Source of the DNA: Thermoguttaceae bacterium
Lineage (GTDB): Bacteria; Planctomycetota; Planctomycetia; Pirellulales; Thermoguttaceae
Length of the DNA stretch: 64,000 nt
NCBI GenBank assembly: GCA_017434455.1
Contig: JAFRFG010000036.1
Span: 124,001 to 188,000 of the forward strand
Reading direction: 5' to 3'
In this document: positions 34,516-45,526 of the stretch, piece after piece
Layout of the letters: the number at the start of each line of letters is the position of its first letter
How positions within the stretch are numbered: position 1 is the stretch's first letter
The notes under the pieces: generated by a model
Databases searched by the model: none
The model's input: only the letters and a program-made list of their open reading frames with translations
Told to the model about the DNA's origin: nothing
Made by a program: the position numbers and the translations under genes

Positions 34516-34523
34516 AGTGACCA

Positions 34524-34560
34524 AAAAAAAAGACCATCCGCGCGAGCGGGTGGTCTTTTA
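34524..34560 (-). terminator. Strong terminator of the Cys-rich protein gene (bidirectional in form)
   Basis: Stem GACCATCCGC (34533-34542) / GCGGGTGGTC (34547-34556) with loop GCGA and one G-T pair. On the minus strand nine T follow (34524-34532); on the plus strand four T follow. Confidence 0.85.
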
Positions 34561-34614: not shown

Positions 34615-34643
34615 AAGAGGCCATCGCCGAACGACGGCCTCTT
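34615..34643 (-). other. Additional hairpin in the 3' leader of the Cys-rich gene
   Basis: Arms AAGAGGCCATCG (34615-34626) and CGACGGCCTCTT (34632-34643) surround a 5-base loop. The single non-complementary position is A-C on plus but G-T on minus, so the hairpin is stable in minus-strand RNA, that is in the 3' end of the Cys-rich mRNA. Confidence 0.6.
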
Positions 34644-34658
34644 TCAATGAACGATCGC

Positions 34659-35150
34659 TTAGCAACCGCAAGCCGGGGCACAAGCCGGAGCCGGAGCCGG
34701 GGCGCAAGCCGGAGCACAGGCCGGAGCCGGAGCGCAGCAAGGAGCGCAGAGCTTGGGCAGGCAGAGCTTGGGCAGGCAGATCTTCGGCAGGCAGATCTTC
34801 GGCAGGCAGGGAGCGCAGCACGGAGCCGGAGCGCAAGCCGGGGCGCAGGCGGGCTCACAAGCGGCGGGCTCACAAGCCGGAGCAGCCGGAGCGCAAGCGG
34901 GCTCACAGGCGGCGGGCTCACAAGCCGGAGCCGGGGCGCAAGCCGGAGCGCAGCAGGCGAAGCACGGCTTCGGGAAGCAGAACTTCGGCAGGCAAGGAGC
35001 GCAGCACGGGGCCGGAGCCGGAGCACAGGCCGGAGCGCAAGCGGGGACGTCACAGCCAGCCGGGGCGCAAGCGCCACAGTCGGCCAGAACCGCGCAAGCC
35101 GAAACCATAACGATCACGGCAAACAGCGGAAGAAGGTTACGAAGCTTCAT
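34659..35150 (-). CDS. Exported Cys/Ala/Pro repeat protein
   Basis: This 163-residue protein has a hydrophobic leader (MKLRNLLPLFAVIVMVSAC) and a mature part of almost only Cys, Ala, Pro and Glu. I count 35 cysteines. Units such as ACAPAPACEPAACEPACAPA recur, and two blocks of CLPKxC (once with FCFPK variants, once four times in a row) alternate with them. The leader could be cut after AVLA, or VSAC could act as a lipobox. AGGAG eight bases before the ATG, a promoter and a strong terminator show it is a single expressed gene. Such a chain could be cross-linked by disulfides into a wall-like layer, or bind metals. Function is not known. Confidence 0.8.
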   Translation of the reverse strand: MKLRNLLPLFAVIVMVSACAVLADCGACAPAGCDVPACAPACAPAPAPCCAPCLPKFCFPKPCFACCAPACAPAPACEPAACEPACAPAAPACEPAACEPACAPACAPAPCCAPCLPKICLPKICLPKLCLPKLCAPCCAPAPACAPACAPAPAPACAPACGC

Positions 35151-35320
35151 CAGTAAATCTCCTAACTTGGGGTACAGATTTTAGGCACGGCGCCTATAAC
35201 AAACTTCTCCAAGGGTTCTTATCGACAGCCAGCCATCGAGCTTTTACAACCCAAGGTACGTTTCGTATTTTACCGGGCATAGCGGTTTTTCACACTCTGC
35301 CCAAACACTTTCTTTAGTCC

Positions 35321-35348
35321 AGTATACATTGCGTTTCGGCGTTTTCAA
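35321..35348 (-). promoter_or_regulatory. Promoter of the Cys-rich protein gene
   Basis: On the minus strand TTGAAA (35348-35343), 16 bases, TATACT (35326-35321). The leader would be about 165 bases. Confidence 0.5.
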
Positions 35349-35408
35349 GGAAAAAACGAAAACTTTTCTTCCCTGCTGATTCACGCCCGCAGCAAATACC
35401 TTCCTATT

Positions 35409-35419
35409 CGGTATAACCG
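35409..35419. promoter_or_regulatory. CGGTATAACCG element, 61 bases upstream of the Cys-rich -35 box
   Basis: The same near-palindrome occurs in opposite orientation at 43417-43427, at almost the same distance upstream of the predicted PilM-operon promoter. A regulator site is inferred. Confidence 0.35.
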
Positions 35420-35633
35420 GCAAACTTTAGCCGGCACCTCAAAGGGCTTGCCGGAGACCTCCCAAGGAGGCCGCCTGCAAACGCTCAGTGTAATTAACGG
35501 CTTTTTCCCCCTGAGCTTTTACCCTTTTCGACTAAAAACAGCGTCAGACCATGGATCAGCCATCCACAGCGACCATTTTAATCGACATATCTTCTTTATT
35601 CTAAGAAGATTCCCTATCTTACAACGAAAAGGC

Positions 35634-35670
35634 AGCAAAAAAAAGGGGGGGTCTCCCCCCCTTTTTTTGT
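35634..35670 (-). terminator. Terminator of the PilM-type operon
   Basis: Seven G (35645-35651), loop TCT, seven C (35655-35661), flanked by A-run on the left (35637-35644) and T-run on the right. It is the end of the operon on the minus strand and would also stop plus-strand transcription. Confidence 0.85.
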
Positions 35671-35680
35671 TTTTACTCTT

Positions 35681-37600
35681 TTAATAGTCGCTCGACTGTG
35701 AGAAAGCCGGCGTTTGCATTTGGGCTCCCGTCATCCCGGACGCGGACGGCTTATACCGCTGGAGTTCCCGATTGTCGGTCCGAAATTCGTGAATCTTGAT
35801 CAGGCCGTTGGGGTCGAGGAAGAAGGCCTCCGAAGGAGTCTGTACCTTATAGGCGCCGGCCTGGACCTCTTGACCGCCGAAGGCGTCGATCAGACACAGG
35901 TCGGAATGATGGTTGTCGACCCCCTTCCCCTTCTTGTCTTTCTTACCGGTGGTGCCGAGGACGGAGTCCATACGGGTGATCCCGGCGCCATTGAGATCAA
36001 TCGGATTGTGTTTTTCACGCGGCCAGTTCGCCATTTGGCCTCGGGCCAGTTTCTTCCCCTCCGCGACAGACTCCTGAGCGTCTTCGGTGCTGAAGAACAG
36101 GGAGGAGACGGTCACCTTCGGATCGAGCCATGGCGAGGAAGCCGGGGTAATCGATTCCACCAGAACGCGCGACTCCGTCCCCAAAGCGACCGAGTTGGAC
36201 GGCTCGCTGAACGCCGATTGAACGGTCATCTGGTCCACGGTGGTCGGATCTTCCACCAGATTGGTTTCGAGCTTCCAGTTCGGGTTGAACAGGATAAGCT
36301 TGACGCGGTACTGGTAGGTCACCCCGGGTTCGGCGTTGAAATCGAAGAAACGGAACAGATAGAAACTCTCCTCCGCCTTCTTGAGCTTCCTAACCTGCTG
36401 CTGACCATTGATGCCGCGGCGGCCAAGCGAACGCCCCATCATACCGGCGCCGCCGGGACCGGGGCCGCTCGGACCGCCCATACTCGGGCCTTCCGGATCA
36501 CCGGGACCGGACACCATCCCACCCATCGGCCCGCCCATCATACCGCCCGAACGGCGATTCTGGCGGGCGCCGGCGGTATTTCCTCCGCCGTATTCGTACT
36601 GGGACTGGGCGCGGGAGAGACTAAAGTCGCGTTTCTGCTGCTCTTTAACCTCGTCCTCCTGCTTTTTCTGCTCTTTGAGCATCGTGGCCTGCTCCTCTAT
36701 ATGCTCGGTATCCATCAGGGGGATCTCCGGCAGATAAGCCACTTCGTCTTGGAACGCCTTGTTGAGCATCGGAGGACAGGGCATCGCCAGCTCGGGAAGC
36801 GCGCCAAAAGGAGGAGCGATATGATCCTCAGAGACAGGATCGACACCATAGCCGTTCCATTGATCGACCTCGTCCTCGTAGATTTCCTCAAGATTAAGGG
36901 GGTCCCAATTTTGGACTTGGCCATCTTCGCCGACAACCCCTCGCTCGATCTCGAAGGAGACGTAGACGGGGAAATCACGGTCAACGTCGGTGAACTGGGC
37001 CTTGGAGAATTTTTCGTTGAAAATCCGCAGCTGTTCCCCAACCGGAACCAGACCGGTCACGACAATCCAGTTTCGGCCCTGAATCCTTCCGGCCGCGGCC
37101 GACGAGGAGCCCATGGCGCCGGTGCCGCCGTAACCGCCCATAGCGCCCCCAATAGTGAAGGCACCGCTTTTCAGCAGGGTATTCGGGACGTATTGAATCG
37201 CGCCGATGCAGGAGACCGCTCGCAACCCCCGCACCGGAAGAGGATTATCGATGCTGGGACGCTTGATCATTTCGGGGAAGAGCGAATCTTCCCAGCGGAT
37301 CGGGGTACGGTATTGCTCGGGGCTGAGAGCGGTCTTGATCAAATCGGAGTAGGCCTTGTAATCGTAGACCTTCAGCGTGTTGTCGACATCATCGAGGCCG
37401 ACCTTATTCTCCTGGATCTTTTGCTTCGCCTTCTTGGCGGAATCCTCCATGTCGTGCGGCTGAAGTTTGAATTTCTCCAGACCGCTCCCCTTTGCCGCCA
37501 TCATCGCGGCAAGGGCAAGAAGCACCACGAAAAGGAACTTTTCAAAGTGCGCCGAGAGGAAATTCTGGAAGGAAGAACCGCTCCCTTTTTTCTTAGCCAT
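35681..37600 (-). CDS. Membrane-anchored protein of the PilM-type operon, third gene
   Basis: This 639-residue protein has a basic N-terminus, one membrane helix (about 22-38) and a large outer domain. A Gly/Met/Pro-rich stretch at about 345-395 (GGPMGG, GGPSGPGPGG) splits it. The second half has a beta-rich part (FYLFRFFDFNAEPGVTYQYRVKLILFNPNW), followed by a short KKDKKGKG patch. The topology (short cytosolic tail, one helix, outer domain) is that of PilN/PilO/PilP-type pilus or secretion subunits, and the neighbour is a PilM homologue. No direct family match was recognised. The start is set at ATG 37600; a GTG one codon earlier is possible. Confidence 0.7.
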   Translation of the reverse strand: MAKKKGSGSSFQNFLSAHFEKFLFVVLLALAAMMAAKGSGLEKFKLQPHDMEDSAKKAKQKIQENKVGLDDVDNTLKVYDYKAYSDLIKTALSPEQYRTPIRWEDSLFPEMIKRPSIDNPLPVRGLRAVSCIGAIQYVPNTLLKSGAFTIGGAMGGYGGTGAMGSSSAAAGRIQGRNWIVVTGLVPVGEQLRIFNEKFSKAQFTDVDRDFPVYVSFEIERGVVGEDGQVQNWDPLNLEEIYEDEVDQWNGYGVDPVSEDHIAPPFGALPELAMPCPPMLNKAFQDEVAYLPEIPLMDTEHIEEQATMLKEQKKQEDEVKEQQKRDFSLSRAQSQYEYGGGNTAGARQNRRSGGMMGGPMGGMVSGPGDPEGPSMGGPSGPGPGGAGMMGRSLGRRGINGQQQVRKLKKAEESFYLFRFFDFNAEPGVTYQYRVKLILFNPNWKLETNLVEDPTTVDQMTVQSAFSEPSNSVALGTESRVLVESITPASSPWLDPKVTVSSLFFSTEDAQESVAEGKKLARGQMANWPREKHNPIDLNGAGITRMDSVLGTTGKKDKKGKGVDNHHSDLCLIDAFGGQEVQAGAYKVQTPSEAFFLDPNGLIKIHEFRTDNRELQRYKPSASGMTGAQMQTPAFSQSSDY

Positions 37601-37700
37601 CACCTACACCCGCTGCTGTATTCTTGGATTGTTATATTCTTGCTTGTGAATAATTCCGGCGCGCGGCCATTGCCGATCGCGCGCGCCGCGCGGCCACTGC

Positions 37701-40256
37701 CTACTCTTCTTCCTCTTCCGAGTTATCCGAGTCGTCTTCACCGGTGTCGTTCCCCGAAGGGGCCTGCGGCGCCGCGGAGGGTTGGTTCTGCCCAGCGGCG
37801 GCCGCGCCGGCATCGGATTGACCCGCGGTGTTTTCACCGCTTTCGTCCTCGGCACCTTCCGAGGTGCCTTGATCAGCGCCCGGTCCATTGGGGGCGGTGC
37901 CGTTGGGACCGGGCTGCTGTCCGGCGGCATCGGCCTTCCCCTCATCCTTTTCCCCCTCTTCGGCGTTGCCTGTTCCCAGGAGCTCCTTGTCGGGCTCGGT
38001 ATACAGACGGATCACCCCATACAGTTCGATCGTGATCACATCGGCGCCATACTCACTCTCTTCGGCGGTGCGGGCCCCGCGACCGACAGAGATCCCGCCC
38101 GAGTTGTTGCTGGGACGATTCCTCGCGGCGGAGGGACCGCCGGGACCACTCGGACCGTCCATCATATCGGGGTCCACATAACCACCCTGACCGCCCGCCG
38201 GGCCGCCGGGCCCCCCGGGACCACTCGGACCGCCCATCGGGCCGCCCGGACCTCCGGGACCGCTCGGACCACCCATCGGGCCGCCGGGTCCGCCGGGGCC
38301 GCTCGGACCGGCCATTCGCATCGAAGCGGCCGCCGTACCGAAACCCGTTTCCCCATTGAGGCAGACACGAAGGTGACGGACATCGATCGGCATCGGGCTG
38401 TTGGCGCAGCAGACCAGAAGGTCGGAAATCCGACGCTGGTCGATCACCAGACGAAGCATCACCGGCATCTTTTTGAATTCGGCATAGGGGGAAGCTCCCG
38501 AGCCATCGTAGATCGGCTGGTTTGCCTCATCGAGATAGCGCCCGTAGAGAATCCCCTGCAGCGCCGCGGCCTCTTGTTGTTCCTTCTGGGTCGAGCCGGC
38601 GCCGGCCATCCCGGCGGAGGAACCGCCCGACATGGTTCTGGAACCGCTGGAACCAAAGCCGGATCCGGATGATCCCATGCCCCCTGAGGACATAGAGCCC
38701 CCCATACCGACGCCCACGCCCATACCCATGCCCATGCCGCCTCCGGGGCCTCCCATGCCGCCGGCCGCCGAGACGTCGTACGTCGCCATCGTGGTCGAGC
38801 TGACCATCGTCTGCCACGCGGCACCGGCATCCTGACCGATAAGCATCTGCTCAATGCGTTTGACCGGAGATTGGGCAATATCGTTCTTGGCCAACTCGAT
38901 TTTGGCTCGATCCTCGTCGGTCCACTGCATTTCGTCACTGGCGGGCTTATACCGGTTAGTCTCCACCAAAATACCGATAATCGAGTTGTAGACCCACAGA
39001 TCTTCCTGGAGGTACCAGACCTCCACCGACATCGGGACACCGTTCACTCCCCAAGTGATCATTTTGAAGACCTCAGGGCTTGTCCAGTCGATATTGCCGA
39101 CGATTCGAACGCGCTGCTCGTACATCGGCAGACCGGGATAAAGTTCGGTGGTCTCATCAAAGGAATAGTCGGGATCCCAAATAAGATCATCCGCGGCCCT
39201 AGCTTGGACCTGCATCACTGCCGGATCGATCCCGTACCCGGGAATAGAGCTCTTCGAACCTAACATGGAGGATCCCATTCCCCCACGCGCGGAAGACCTG
39301 GCCGTCCCCGCCCCGGGCCCCCCCATCGGGCCGCCGGGTCCACCGGGACCGCTGGGACCGGCCATCGGACCGGCCATCGGACCGCCCATCGGACCACCGG
39401 GGCTGTCTAAGTCATCCATCCCCCCGGGACCACCGGGTCCCCCCATCGGGCCGCCGGGACCGCCGGGCGACATTCGAGACGACCTCGACACCGCGCCGCT
39501 GGTGACATAATCACGCGGGGAGGAGATCATCGGATCGAGTTCACGATAGAAGGGAACGCGATCAGTCAAACCGGCCAGACGGCTGCGCAGCTGGCTGTCT
39601 TCCACCTCTTCGAGGTAGAACTCTTTGTCGTCGTAGAGATAGACCGTCCCGTTCCAGGCGACGACGTAAAGAAGTCCCTCTTCGGGATCTTGGAAGACCG
39701 GCTGAAAACGACTGACCGGGGGATTTTGGCTCTTGTCGGTAACCAGCGTGTATTCTTTCAGCTGGGCACGGCGCAAGTTGATATCTTTGAGCAGCTCGGG
39801 AATGTTGTTGACCAGATAGTACCCATAGTCTTCGAGCAAATACGGTCGCTTGGGGTCAATCGGAGTCCCGAACTTCGTCTTCGGATCTTCAACAAAATCG
39901 AGGAATTCACGCGAGAGCTTCTGTGGCCAGCGGTTGTAAGTCCGCTGATCTTGGTACATCGAGGACCAGGCGCTGAAGATGTTCCCCGCCAGGAGATCCT
40001 TCTCATCCTGGATCAGCTTGATGGTTTCGTCGTTCGGATGCTTCGCGTCGGAAGCGATCTTATCGGTCGCGGACTTCTCCGATTCGTATTGACCCGTCTT
40101 GCTCGTGTACTCTTCCTTAATTTTGTTCATTGATTTTGAACCAAAGAACAAAACCAGAAGAACCGCGACAGGCACCCCCACCCAGAAGCCGATCTGCTTC
40201 ACGTCCTGGAGGGTCATTTTTGTCTTATTCGCTTTGACAGTGGTCGCTTTTGCCAT
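37701..40256 (-). CDS. Membrane-anchored protein of the PilM-type operon, second gene, with collagen-like repeats
   Basis: This 851-residue protein has a short basic tail, a membrane helix (about 22-42) and then a helical/coiled stretch, as in PilO-like subunits. Two long Gly/Pro/Met-rich blocks, at about 260-325 and 645-700, repeat units such as GPSGPGGPGGPMG. A third Gly/Met/Ser block lies at about 510-560. The last 90 residues are acidic and Gly/Gln/Ala-rich, ending in five Glu. Between the blocks are ordinary alpha/beta stretches (IDWTSPEVFKMITWGVNGVPM, VMLRLVIDQRRISDLLVCCANS). The second looks like the PilO/GspM type of ferredoxin-like fold; this is tentative. ATG 40256 has no clear ribosome site. 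Confidence 0.7.
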   Translation of the reverse strand: MAKATTVKANKTKMTLQDVKQIGFWVGVPVAVLLVLFFGSKSMNKIKEEYTSKTGQYESEKSATDKIASDAKHPNDETIKLIQDEKDLLAGNIFSAWSSMYQDQRTYNRWPQKLSREFLDFVEDPKTKFGTPIDPKRPYLLEDYGYYLVNNIPELLKDINLRRAQLKEYTLVTDKSQNPPVSRFQPVFQDPEEGLLYVVAWNGTVYLYDDKEFYLEEVEDSQLRSRLAGLTDRVPFYRELDPMISSPRDYVTSGAVSRSSRMSPGGPGGPMGGPGGPGGMDDLDSPGGPMGGPMAGPMAGPSGPGGPGGPMGGPGAGTARSSARGGMGSSMLGSKSSIPGYGIDPAVMQVQARAADDLIWDPDYSFDETTELYPGLPMYEQRVRIVGNIDWTSPEVFKMITWGVNGVPMSVEVWYLQEDLWVYNSIIGILVETNRYKPASDEMQWTDEDRAKIELAKNDIAQSPVKRIEQMLIGQDAGAAWQTMVSSTTMATYDVSAAGGMGGPGGGMGMGMGVGVGMGGSMSSGGMGSSGSGFGSSGSRTMSGGSSAGMAGAGSTQKEQQEAAALQGILYGRYLDEANQPIYDGSGASPYAEFKKMPVMLRLVIDQRRISDLLVCCANSPMPIDVRHLRVCLNGETGFGTAAASMRMAGPSGPGGPGGPMGGPSGPGGPGGPMGGPSGPGGPGGPAGGQGGYVDPDMMDGPSGPGGPSAARNRPSNNSGGISVGRGARTAEESEYGADVITIELYGVIRLYTEPDKELLGTGNAEEGEKDEGKADAAGQQPGPNGTAPNGPGADQGTSEGAEDESGENTAGQSDAGAAAAGQNQPSAAPQAPSGNDTGEDDSDNSEEEEE

Positions 40257-40316
40257 GGTATTTTGATGTTCTGTTCGGGAAATTCGTTCAACAGTCCAAT
40301 CGCTGGACAACGACCG

Positions 40317-43160
40317 TTAGTTCTCGTCATCAGCCGCTTGCTCGGCGGCGTCACCGCCGCCTTCCGCCGGCGTCTCTTCCGGCTGAGGAGCGGCCTGCTC
40401 CTCGGCCTCGGCGGCGGGTTCGGCATTCTCAGCGGCGGGAGCGGTGCCGGCGGAAGCACTCTCATCGGCTCCCTCGCCGCCCTCGGTCTGGGCAGCGTTG
40501 TCACTGTTCGCCCCGGCTCCCGGTTTCCCCCCCTTGGCACCGTTCTTCGCGCCGGATTTTTCGTCGGCCTGGCGCTTTGCCTCACGCTCGGCGCGCTGCT
40601 TCTCTCGGAGGGTGGGAGGCGTCTCGACCCAGACCATCTGGACGTCAAAATCAAAACGACGGAGCTTGAGAATCTTCTCATCACTCATCTGGTTGGCGAT
40701 ATTCCCCAGCGCGGAAGAGGAGATTCCGCCTCCCATACTGCTGGGACCGGGGCCGCTCGGACCGCCGGGACCGGTAGGACCGGAGGGTCCCATACCGCTG
40801 GACATCATGCCGCCGGGCCCCATACTGACGGTATCGGGGTCGACCGGACCGGGACCGGAAGGACCTCCCATGGACATTCCCCTCCGGGAGGAAGTACCAC
40901 TGGTCCCGTTGATTCTTGTCTCTTGGATTTTGCGCAACTGCTCCACCGCCGCCTCCGGGTCGAGGACGCGGTAGTTGTTATCGATGGGGCCGGGATCCAG
41001 CATGACCGGATAATTCAGACCGAATTCTTTGTAGGTCCACGTCTCGGTCAGGCCTTTTCCCTCGATTCTCTGCTTTTCCAAGCTGACAGGCAGTTCGATG
41101 GAACCGTGCTTGATTCGAGGCAAAAAGACGCGGCGCACATACTCCGGGCCGCGATTGGGGTCATCGAGACTCTCGGGGTTATGGTAATGGTAGCAGTGAA
41201 GCTGAACGATCCTTCCCGGCCCGGTCGGCGCGGGAATCAGGGCCAGACGCGCGTCACTGGTCTCGGTATATTCGGCGATCGATGTGTCCGCCCCACCTTT
41301 GCCGCCGACTCCCGGCTTGCCCCCCTTGGCGCCGGTTTTACCCTTGGCGGCGGTCGATTTGGCCGTGGTTTTCCCCGCGGCGGGCTTGGCAGCGGTCTTG
41401 GCAGTGGTCTTCCCGGCCGTGGTTTTTCCGAGCTTTCCTTTTCCCTTGGCGTTCTTTCCCTTGGCACCGGCCTTGGTGGAAACGGGGATCAGCTCTTCGG
41501 CGGTAGGAGTGAAATTAAACCCATCCTCCAGGGTGACGGGGGAATCTTCCTCGAACCACTTCGCCTCAATGTCGTCAATCGAATACCACTGGCGAACCCC
41601 CTCGAACCATGTCGACAGTTCCTCACAGGCAAGAACCTCGATATTGTCGATATAGACACGGTTTTGAGCGGTGATCTCGGTGGCCTTCTTTCGTGTCGGC
41701 GTGTCATTGCTAAAGACGTCGGGAGGGAGAGAATCGGCGGGGAAGATGGTGTTGAGGACCGTTAGGAACTCCAGCCAGGTAAGCCGTCCCTCAACGTTGC
41801 TGGTTAAGGTTTTGCCCACCTCGTCGATTGTCTTGAAATCCGAGACCTGAGAAGAGACATCTTTCTTGATCTTTTGGGACAAAGAGGTTGCGTCTTTCGC
41901 GGCGCTGTACGCTCTGTCGTATTCGGGGGTATCGACTTTGCTGAAGGCCATCGTCGCGGCGATGTACTGAATGGCCATCGCCAAAATCAGTATCGCGGCG
42001 GCCGCCAGGGCCCACGGTTTTTTACTGTTGATATAGCGCTCGCGGAGAACCTCTTTCGGCATCAGGTTGACACTGAGGGTCGCTTGATGGAGCTGCTCCA
42101 GCGCCAAGCCGTAGGCAATGGAGAAGGAGGAGAGATTCCCGGTAAACTGCGGGTTGGCCAGAACCTCCTGCCCTTCCAGACGCTTGAACCGAGAGGGAAT
42201 CTCGACCTCGTAGCCGCTGCTCTTCGCCAGGAACTGGCGCAGACCGGGGAGTTTCATCGCGTTGCCGAACGCGTAGATCTTTCTGATATTTGCCCGCTTA
42301 TTGAGACTGCAATAATACTTGATCGAACGGTCGATTTCGGCGTACAGCTCGTTGAAGACCGACCGCATCGCCAAAATAACCGCCTTCGGATCTTGGCTGG
42401 TGGCGGCGTTGCGCTTGATATGCTCGGCGTTCGAGAAGGTGAGCTTCAGCGACTTGGTCAGGGCTTTGGTGAACGCGTTTCCGCCCAAAACGATGTTGCG
42501 CAGCCAAACGGAAACACCGTTGGTGATCACCACTTCGGTTGAATCGGTTCCGACATTGATGAGGACATCGTAGTCGTTCAGGGACGAAAGATCAGCGCCG
42601 TCGAGCTCACCGGGTTCGTACCGCTCGTTGACATAGCAGTTATACAGGGCGATCGGAACACCCTGGATGCTGTCGACCGACAGACCGTTGCTCTCGTACT
42701 GATTGAGGGTCTTGTTGGTCAGCTCCTTCTTCATGGCGTACATGAAGATGTTCGCGTCAATAAGGATGTTCCCCTCCTGGAAACCGCCCACCTGACGGTA
42801 ATTCCAGATCACCTCATCCAAATCGAACGGGAGCCACTGACGAACTTCATACTTGACAAGGTCTTTGAGCTTGCGAGGATCGACCGGCGGAAGCGGCTGA
42901 AAACGCCACAGCGCGTTCTGTCCGCTCACCGAGATCGCCACTTTCTCTCCGGCAATATCGTTGCGCGACAGAAACTGGGCAATCGTCTCGGCCATGATCT
43001 GTGCCGCGTCGGCGCCCGGCTGCGACAGAACCTTGCTGTGCTCGATGTAGTCGAACCCAAGAACCTGCATCGTCCCCGGTTCACTCCCTGCCGTACAGCG
43101 CAAGGCCTTTAAAGAGGTATTCCCTATATCGATTCCCCAGACAATATGATTACTGGCCAT
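40317..43160 (-). CDS. pilM: PilM-type actin-like ATPase fused to a PilN-like segment, with H1-like linker
   Basis: This 947-residue protein starts with the actin-like PilM fold (residues 1-360): WGIDIGNTSLKALR, VKYEVRQWLPFDLDEVIW, NYDVLINVGTDSTEVV and IYAFGNAMKLPGLRQFL. Residues about 375-400 and a membrane helix (PWALAAAAILILAMAIQYI) with the preceding VNLMPKEV correspond to the start of PilN, so PilM and PilN appear fused. A long outer part follows. A Lys/Ala/Gly/Thr-rich linker (about 560-627) looks like eukaryotic histone H1 tails, a Gly/Pro/Met block sits at about 780-825, and the tail is acidic. PilM and PilN normally form the inner-membrane platform of type IV pili or type II secretion. 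It is the first gene of the operon. Confidence 0.88.
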   Translation of the reverse strand: MASNHIVWGIDIGNTSLKALRCTAGSEPGTMQVLGFDYIEHSKVLSQPGADAAQIMAETIAQFLSRNDIAGEKVAISVSGQNALWRFQPLPPVDPRKLKDLVKYEVRQWLPFDLDEVIWNYRQVGGFQEGNILIDANIFMYAMKKELTNKTLNQYESNGLSVDSIQGVPIALYNCYVNERYEPGELDGADLSSLNDYDVLINVGTDSTEVVITNGVSVWLRNIVLGGNAFTKALTKSLKLTFSNAEHIKRNAATSQDPKAVILAMRSVFNELYAEIDRSIKYYCSLNKRANIRKIYAFGNAMKLPGLRQFLAKSSGYEVEIPSRFKRLEGQEVLANPQFTGNLSSFSIAYGLALEQLHQATLSVNLMPKEVLRERYINSKKPWALAAAAILILAMAIQYIAATMAFSKVDTPEYDRAYSAAKDATSLSQKIKKDVSSQVSDFKTIDEVGKTLTSNVEGRLTWLEFLTVLNTIFPADSLPPDVFSNDTPTRKKATEITAQNRVYIDNIEVLACEELSTWFEGVRQWYSIDDIEAKWFEEDSPVTLEDGFNFTPTAEELIPVSTKAGAKGKNAKGKGKLGKTTAGKTTAKTAAKPAAGKTTAKSTAAKGKTGAKGGKPGVGGKGGADTSIAEYTETSDARLALIPAPTGPGRIVQLHCYHYHNPESLDDPNRGPEYVRRVFLPRIKHGSIELPVSLEKQRIEGKGLTETWTYKEFGLNYPVMLDPGPIDNNYRVLDPEAAVEQLRKIQETRINGTSGTSSRRGMSMGGPSGPGPVDPDTVSMGPGGMMSSGMGPSGPTGPGGPSGPGPSSMGGGISSSALGNIANQMSDEKILKLRRFDFDVQMVWVETPPTLREKQRAEREAKRQADEKSGAKNGAKGGKPGAGANSDNAAQTEGGEGADESASAGTAPAAENAEPAAEAEEQAAPQPEETPAEGGGDAAEQAADDEN

Positions 43161-43495: not shown

Positions 43496-45526
43496 TTAAG
43501 ATTCGGCCGATTCCTCTTTTCGTTCCTCAGTCGGTTTAACGACCTGGGCCAGCGGGGGAGAAGGTTCGTCGGAGCTGACGATGAGGACGTTCTCTCCAAA
43601 ATCGACCCCTTCCTCCTCGATCGGTTTGCCGTCCTCCCCCAGTTTCATATCCGCGGCGGAGGTCTTTTTCTTAGCCACCGAGACCAAGTCATCCATAATC
43701 CCGCTTCGTTCCTCCCCCGAGATATCGGCCAAGGCATCGGCCACCTCCCCGAGGTAACGGAGGAAAATACTTCGGCGTTCCCCTTCCTGCTTGACGCGAT
43801 CGCGGCGCTTGAGGAAGACCCCCATTTTACGGCCGACCGCCTGCAGCGCCAGACGGAGTTCCTTTTGAATTTCGGGATAGGCGGCGATCGCCTCTTTCGA
43901 CTCACTGGTGAAAGGAACCCAGACGCTGGCCAAATGGACCATCACGGTGATCGGCCCGCGGGGGAGCTGGCCGCGCGACTGCGCCAGCCCGTAGGGGCGC
44001 CAGTTCATCTGCATGACCTGCTGTGTGATCAGACACGCGCCGGGCTGAAACTGCAGCGGGACACGATTGGCGTAACGATAGATGTTCATCGTCTGCCCCT
44101 CGTTGAGATTCAGCGTCCGAAGTGACTCGGCCAGAGCGTCGAACTCTTTCGGCGAAATCTTCGCCGGGGAGACACGGGGACGAATCTTCGCGTTTTTAAT
44201 TATCTTATCGGCCCCATCGGCACCGATCCCGTCGAACGAGGTGGTCAGAAACTGCCGGATCGTCCGCGCGTCGCTTTCGTGCAGGAGTTCGGCCAGCGTC
44301 TCGCGGGAAACCTTCTGGGTCGCGGGACCGCCGCCGTAGGCCAATCCCACTTCGATTTGAAACGGATTCCCCCGATAGACCGCGGGCGGCCGTGTCGCCG
44401 AGGCGAAAAACTCCCCGGGAACCACCTTGTGCAGTCCGGCGAGAATATTCGCCTCCCCGATCGGGACAATACAGTCGGTGGAGGGCGCGGGGATCTTCGT
44501 TTCGGCGATTGTTTTAAACAGGGCCTCGGCTTCGGAACGAGTCACCTCACCGGGAACCGTTCGGGGAGAGAGCTTGGCGCCGGCCGCCAGGGTGTTGGCA
44601 ATCGGCTTGGAGACGCGCGAAAACGAGTCGGTCAGGAACTTTTGCAGCGTCGGCGCCGTGGTGTCGCGGAGCATCTCTAAAAAGCGCCCGAACTCAATCC
44701 CGTAAGGATGGGGCTTGATCTCGGTCGGCTCCCGGGGAATCTCTTGGAGCGTTCGAGGATAGAGTGTCTCGACACCATCGGGATTGACGTAGTGGAAACA
44801 GGCGTGCGGGTTAGAGATAGCCGTCTGCTCGAGATACTCATCGACACTTCCGCGGCCCCGCTGATATTTCGCCTCCAGCTCGATCGTCACCCGGGTTCCG
44901 TGGGGAACTTCTATCCATTCGATCTGGTTGTCGCTGATGAACTGCCGGCCGATATCATTGGGCGGAATATCAATCCCGTCCCCGTCGCCGTTGAGGATCA
45001 CGGGGCGGTTGAATTTCGTATCCATCCGGATCACGTAATAGTGCGCGGGCTTTCGCGGGGAGACTTTCGAGATGATCCGAACCGGTTTCCCCGTGGTGAG
45101 CAGGCCGTACATCCCCGCGGCGCTGATCCCGATCCCCTGCTGACCGCGGCTCATCCGAAGACGGTGAAATTTGGATCCGTAAAGGAGCTTGCCGAAAATC
45201 AGCGGAATCTGCTTTTTGACGATCCCCGGACCGTTGTCCTGAACCCCGACCAAAAAGCGGTTCGGGGCGGTCATCTCGACACGCACCCATATCTCGGGGA
45301 GGATACCCGCTTCCTCACAGGCGTCGAGGGAATTGTCGACCGCCTCTTTGACGGTCGTCAGGAGTGCCTTGCGCGGGTTGTCGAAACCGAGAAGATGCCG
45401 GTTTTTGGCGAAAAATTCACTGACAGAGATCTCCTTCTGCTCGGCAGCCATTTTTCGGGCATCGGTACGGCGGCCTTTCGTGTTTTCCGATTCCGGTGTC
45501 GTATGATCGGATGGGGACTGACTCAT
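43496..45526 (-). CDS. top6B: DNA topoisomerase VI subunit B
   Basis: This 676-residue protein is the ATP-binding subunit of topoisomerase VI, which passes one duplex through a double-strand break. It has the GHKL ATPase motifs: AVDNSLDACEEAG (N box), DNGPGIVKKQIPLIFGKLLYGSKFH (G1 box and ATP lid) and RGQQGIGISAAGMYG, plus HGTRVTIELEA. The transducer domain contains PLQFQPGACLITQQV. After the Top6B core the chain continues about 60 acidic, Lys-rich residues. The enzyme is typical of archaea and plants and is found in some bacteria. The A subunit with the cutting tyrosine is not adjacent or anywhere in the window. AGGAAGG precedes the ATG. Confidence 0.95.
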   Translation of the reverse strand: MSQSPSDHTTPESENTKGRRTDARKMAAEQKEISVSEFFAKNRHLLGFDNPRKALLTTVKEAVDNSLDACEEAGILPEIWVRVEMTAPNRFLVGVQDNGPGIVKKQIPLIFGKLLYGSKFHRLRMSRGQQGIGISAAGMYGLLTTGKPVRIISKVSPRKPAHYYVIRMDTKFNRPVILNGDGDGIDIPPNDIGRQFISDNQIEWIEVPHGTRVTIELEAKYQRGRGSVDEYLEQTAISNPHACFHYVNPDGVETLYPRTLQEIPREPTEIKPHPYGIEFGRFLEMLRDTTAPTLQKFLTDSFSRVSKPIANTLAAGAKLSPRTVPGEVTRSEAEALFKTIAETKIPAPSTDCIVPIGEANILAGLHKVVPGEFFASATRPPAVYRGNPFQIEVGLAYGGGPATQKVSRETLAELLHESDARTIRQFLTTSFDGIGADGADKIIKNAKIRPRVSPAKISPKEFDALAESLRTLNLNEGQTMNIYRYANRVPLQFQPGACLITQQVMQMNWRPYGLAQSRGQLPRGPITVMVHLASVWVPFTSESKEAIAAYPEIQKELRLALQAVGRKMGVFLKRRDRVKQEGERRSIFLRYLGEVADALADISGEERSGIMDDLVSVAKKKTSAADMKLGEDGKPIEEEGVDFGENVLIVSSDEPSPPLAQVVKPTEERKEESAES

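Follow-up and report, generated by a model that had tools for sequence, protein, structure and literature searches.

A gene on the minus strand of the window (the whole 64,000-nucleotide stretch of Thermoguttaceae bacterium DNA that was analysed) encodes a Cys/Pro/Ala repeat protein that, by its sequence, is a member of an unnamed, widespread family of putatively exported Thermoguttaceae proteins built from C-x-P-x (CxPx) repeats. We propose with moderate confidence that it is a structural envelope protein, exported by Sec and linked by disulfides to the YTV wall. The gene and its associated elements were assigned as follows:

34659 to 35150, minus strand: Cys/Pro/Ala repeat protein gene (163 amino acids, 35 Cys; stop codon at 34659-34661), supported by homologues and a codon-position test
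35082 to 35150, minus strand: signal-like N terminus MKLRNLLPLFAVIVMVSACAVLA, from the sequence, relatives' starts and an AlphaFold helix at residues 6-26
35159 to 35163, minus strand: ribosome-binding site AGGAG before the ATG, from the sequence
35321 to 35348, minus strand: sigma-70-like promoter candidate TTGAAA-16-TATACT, a consensus match only
34615 to 34643, minus strand: first 3′ hairpin, -22.3 kcal/mol, from folding; a first 3′ hairpin is also present at the other 6 genus loci
34522 to 34559, minus strand: Rho-independent-type terminator hairpin and U run, from folding; U-run hairpins are also present at the other 6 genus loci

The coordinates and the 35 Cys in 163 residues given by the initial annotation were correct, with the gene reading from 35150 to 34659. 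Its Cys fraction (0.215) was the highest of any ATG-started frame of 100 or more amino acids in the window (105 frames), the next being 0.056, and when the gene's bases were shuffled 10,000 times no more than 19 Cys were reached, versus the actual 35. Signal peptidase I probably cleaves after VLA; the mature chain would then number 140 amino acids, among them 35 Pro, 43 Ala and 34 Cys (24%). As previously described, this chain is made almost entirely of two repeat types, mainly CAPA/CEPA words interrupted by two CLPK/CFPK blocks (C-x-P-x words in the protein: CAPA 12, CLPK 5, CEPA 4, CAPC 3, CFPK 1). Intervals between cysteines are mostly 5 and 4 residues with Pro between, and 5 of 33 have CxxC spacing. 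The protein matched 0 Pfam families (YTV domain, PF13885 and metallothioneins included), no named family in NCBIfam and, by sequence, nothing in the PDB, where the single match of the family profile was cytochrome c554 (E 0.057). The AlphaFold model (pTM 0.23; helix at 6-26) was unusable at pLDDT 49 and gave no fold. A bacterial lipoprotein was also considered, as VSAC resembles a lipobox by eye, and was rejected because the orthologues from two other genomes of the genus, G001 and G003, lack a Cys at that position (MKLRNLLSLVAVVALVASVAMAQQAC).

Since 2 of the 5 alternative frames are also stop-free across the repetitive DNA, the open frame by itself is weak evidence for a protein. Codon-position changes between relatives show that the frame is translated and under selection. 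Over the 270 codons compared between G001 and G003, positions 1/2/3 carried 21/21/87 changes; 69 codons differed synonymously and 33 non-synonymously. The corresponding values were 24/26/70, 41 and 36 between the window gene and the G003 copy (153 codons), and 11/11/27, 17 and 14 between the window gene and the G005 copy (138 codons). The start region could be aligned from the ribosome site onward across the window genome (G000), G001 and G003. All 7 genus loci have a first hairpin after the stop codon followed by a U-run hairpin, although the sequences differ, with the window genome and G005 on one side and the other five on the other. A spurious frame, open by chance across a GC-rich repeat and yielding no protein product, would suit the several open frames and the tandem repeats seen at the DNA level. 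Against it stand the excess of changes at third positions and the bias towards synonymous change among relatives, the conserved start region and ribosome site, the two 3′ hairpins at every genus locus and homologues across the family. This reading was rejected on the codon-position evidence, and its probability is negligible.

The gene had been credited with its own ribosome site, a candidate promoter and a terminator, and all are present: AGGAG, TTGAAA-16-TATACT and a -23.3 kcal/mol hairpin (z -5.6) followed by a U run, the last absent from the list produced by a pattern scan. Three promoter-like sites were found in the region, versus 0.4 expected. The additional 3′ hairpin had been called stable only in its own RNA; it is more stable there (z -4.7), but "only" was an overstatement, as the other strand reaches -16.9 kcal/mol (z -1.65). 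The gene is real and in all likelihood expressed. Two possible regulatory sites lie within 35151-35680, the motif CGCCGAAACG and, ahead of the ribosome site, a short AGGC...GCCT element; the window genome, G001 and G003 share both upstream of this gene, the AGGC...GCCT match being looser in G001.

In a single-sequence search, homologues were found in 6/6 other genomes of the genus, and 10 of 40 relatives matched, the window genome included. Length varies among the three complete direct copies, from which alone lengths were taken because the remaining genus copies of this type run off contig ends: 163 residues in the window genome, 294 in G001 and 291 in G003. A five-member profile matched 72 of 119 family genomes (five of the 72 contributed its rows), representing 36 of 40 genera; across an order-wide sample, it matched 7/7 family genomes, the window genome included, versus 10/70 outside the family. 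Because HMMER E-values may be inflated on low-complexity chains, this contrast between family and non-family weighs more than single matches. The initial annotation had proposed a search for homologues with changing repeat numbers, and these were present in 6/6 other genus genomes, with the profile matches extending across the family; a lack of homologues of like composition in related genomes, which it had named as the finding that would speak against its idea, was looked for, and the idea survived. Literature searches of partial coverage returned no description of the CxPx family.

For the anatomy of the family, 33 proteins were listed and 31 measured, the coordinates of the other two being wrong. 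Each of the 31 begins with basic residues and a hydrophobic stretch, followed by CxPx arrays, the start having been picked by that rule. The x of CxP was E in 310 cases, A in 211, R in 72, L in 37 and K in 37. In 21/31, acidic and basic residues form fewer charge runs than in shuffles (p ≤ 0.05); the window protein, which has 11 charges, does not reach significance (p = 0.12). The number of cysteines after the signal was odd in 16 proteins and even in 15, which would be expected were pairing to extend beyond a single chain; this parity fits metal binding equally well. Many members outside the genus carry [KR]xCGLLxRLRAR or CRPRTC blocks in place of the genus's CLPK.

A second type (MKKC...) is carried by G001, G003 and G006. 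At G001:C193 (L060:6487-8140), a stretch of about 1.7 kb contains two CxPx-type genes on the same strand, of which one has an acidic tail, and this pairing suggests a local duplication. The window genome also encodes a distinct Cys/Pro/Arg-rich protein, apparently exported (G000:C8, L051:1552-2019, minus strand; 142 amino acids, 29 Cys, CRPCCPPP-type repeats), which was one of the 31 measured and is a neighbour in kind, with homology unproven. A simple CxPx DNA pattern was tried as a lineage marker and rejected: 61 of 218 class genomes matched, but many of the matches were no more than DNA repeats, and a reversed control matched as well. The longer form of the pattern gave no match in the window genome, and the shorter form gave 4 matches there versus 3 for the control.

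Planctomycete envelopes have been described since the 1980s as cystine- and proline-rich protein. SDS-resistant planctomycete envelopes are described as Pro- and Cys-rich and disulfide-stabilised (PMC3035269), YTV proteins as cysteine-rich and present in planctomycete wall preparations (PMC8567305), and a YTV protein as belonging to the genes essential in Planctopirus limnophila (PMC10632474). Counting against a wall reading, the Isosphaera wall is reported in PMC3072084 to be without Cys or Pro. YTV (PF07639) matches were found in 38/40 relatives and in the window genome, where the YTV wall protein (L158, G000:C50:112410 onward, plus strand) has an 819-residue frame with 95 Cys. Its C terminus reads KVCRPCEPCCQACEPCGTSCAPACESACEPAAPACEPAGC (fuller end, CRPCEPCCQACEPCGTSCAPACESACEPAAPACEPAGC) and contains the CxPA module of the window protein. 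The 40-residue YTV tail scored 122 against the window protein, versus a mean of 76.7 (sd 9.0, max 109) for 2000 tail shuffles and 46 for the best other 40-residue stretch of the same YTV protein, with the caveat that low-complexity repeats may look alike by convergence.

Of 23 YTV regions, 17 had a closed frame and a recognisable end, the other six being cut, masked or without a qualifying frame. A tail with at least 2 CxP was present in 8/9 YTV proteins from the family versus 3/8 from other families of the order, so that module and free-standing protein tend to share a family. Like the window protein, YTV proteins appear exported, have Cys/Pro-rich repeats and are restricted to planctomycetes. 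The window protein differs in having no YTV repeat and 163 rather than about 800 amino acids, and it consists of the tail module and CLPK blocks. A class A PBP glycosyltransferase (GT51) was found in 0/7 genus genomes and in 10/14 control genomes. Loss of class A PBPs is known in the PVC group (PMC8406291), and the missing glycosyltransferase does not mean that peptidoglycan is absent.

In the proposed envelope role, the protein would be exported by Sec, and the mature chain would form a flexible C-x-P-x string (CAPA/CEPA) broken by basic-hydrophobic CLPK blocks. Beyond the inner membrane its cysteines would cross-link between molecules, joining copies of the protein to one another and to the YTV scaffold at its CxPA tail, making the protein a disulfide mortar, as keratin-associated proteins are for hair keratin. 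Repeat number would be free to vary because cross-link density would count more than fold. Of the three functions suggested by the initial annotation, the tail of the genome's own YTV protein, with its CxPA module, strengthens the case for a coat, and an adhesive and a metal sink keep the lower likelihoods given below. YTV proteins were previously the sole components found named for the Cys/Pro-rich planctomycete wall; a second family sharing the YTV tail module supplies named genes that make a wall role directly testable.

VKOR was found in 0/4 genus genomes, DsbA in 1/4 (the window genome being without a match), and DsbB in 0/16 family genomes, the window genome included, and in 2/8 other members of the order. 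That DsbA, DsbB and VKOR were not found in the window genome counts against disulfides, a gap that is common to the YTV proteins of the genus; as DsbB is also missing from 6/8 other order members, its absence says little on redox state. The sister genome G003 came from goat duodenum, a habitat that is probably oxygen-poor, so disulfides may not form readily. Cytochrome bd, tried as a possible sign of oxygen use, gave only weak partial matches in 7/7 genus genomes. For subunit I these matches (G000-G006; G000:C50:2375-3028, minus strand, in the window genome) are N-terminal only and mark a divergent bd-like protein.

One rival reading is an extracytoplasmic metal or thiol sink in the anaerobic gut, with reduced cysteines that would take up soft metals or act as a buffer against sulfide or oxidants. 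The 24% Cys of the mature chain, the lack of DsbA, DsbB and VKOR matches in the window genome and the equal frequency of odd and even Cys counts all point that way. Metallothioneins are likewise small and very Cys-rich, with little fold. Classic metallothioneins are cytosolic, whereas the window protein has a predicted signal peptide, and it differs further in having no Pfam match and in its Pro-rich spacing, with main intervals of 5 and 4 and few CxxC (5/33). No metal-handling gene was seen beside the window gene, which also speaks against a sink, and we consider this function unlikely.

The conserved neighbour in the genus is a PilM operon and not a wall gene. Upstream of the Cys gene lie:

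35681 to 37603, minus strand: 640-amino-acid protein with no Pfam family, conserved in G001 and G003
37701 to 40310, minus strand: 855-869-amino-acid protein with no Pfam family, part of the block conserved in G001 and G003
40317 to 43160, minus strand: 947-amino-acid PilM_2 domain protein (PF11104, E 8e-26), in the same conserved block

This block (35681-43160) resembles an unusually composed pilus or type II secretion platform. Separately, 43496-45526 of the window encodes, in a bacterium, a protein that has the transducer domain of topoisomerase VI subunit B (PF09239, E 6.6e-51). The neighbourhood counts against a wall role and leaves room for one in a pilus or in adhesion: the window protein could be a surface partner of the PilM-type apparatus, pilus-associated or part of a fibre or holdfast, with Cys repeats giving adhesion or fibre cohesion. 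The three-gene block lies directly upstream in the window genome, G001 and G003, the only genus genomes with contigs spanning that side; the 640-amino-acid neighbour is about 41% identical across block copies, and the downstream genes differ between the three genomes. However, the gene is separated from the PilM block by 530 bases containing the gene's own promoter candidate and a terminator-like site, and the block was not found in the 13 kb around the homologue in G272, from another genus. A PilM partnership is rated as rather improbable, and the disulfide-linked envelope protein is preferred.

A broader and more speculative picture, to which we give somewhat less than even weight, is that Thermoguttaceae have a two-component, hair-like wall. 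Small, fast-evolving CxPx mortar proteins would share the CxPA tail module of long YTV scaffolds and lock these through disulfides (or, in the absence of oxygen, through shared metal ions). Class A PBP glycosyltransferase would be missing from these bacteria, which would have converged on the arrangement of keratin plus keratin-associated proteins.

Two known systems invite comparison. The chlamydial cysteine-rich envelope proteins OmcA and OmcB have a disulfide role and belong to the same PVC superphylum, and they similarly offer a disulfide-held envelope instead of a strong peptidoglycan layer. They differ in that no Pfam family is matched here, and in that Chlamydia has DsbA and DsbB, according to PMC6752827, which were not found in the window genome. 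When six relatives were scanned with PF13885 (hair high-sulfur keratin-associated protein; Pfam cut-off 27 bits), L120, L131 and L130 scored 69.7, 48.9 and 47.9 bits, above the cut-off, L126 fell below it, and L118 and L053 had no match. Short Cys-Pro repeats in variable copy number are common to the window protein and the keratin-associated proteins (PF13885/PF01500). The differences are that the window protein itself has no PF13885 match and that the animal proteins are cytoplasmic. The simplest explanation of this likeness is convergence on Cys-Pro repeats that serve the same mechanical purpose, rather than shared ancestry, and the CxPx family offers a bacterial comparison for keratin-associated proteins.
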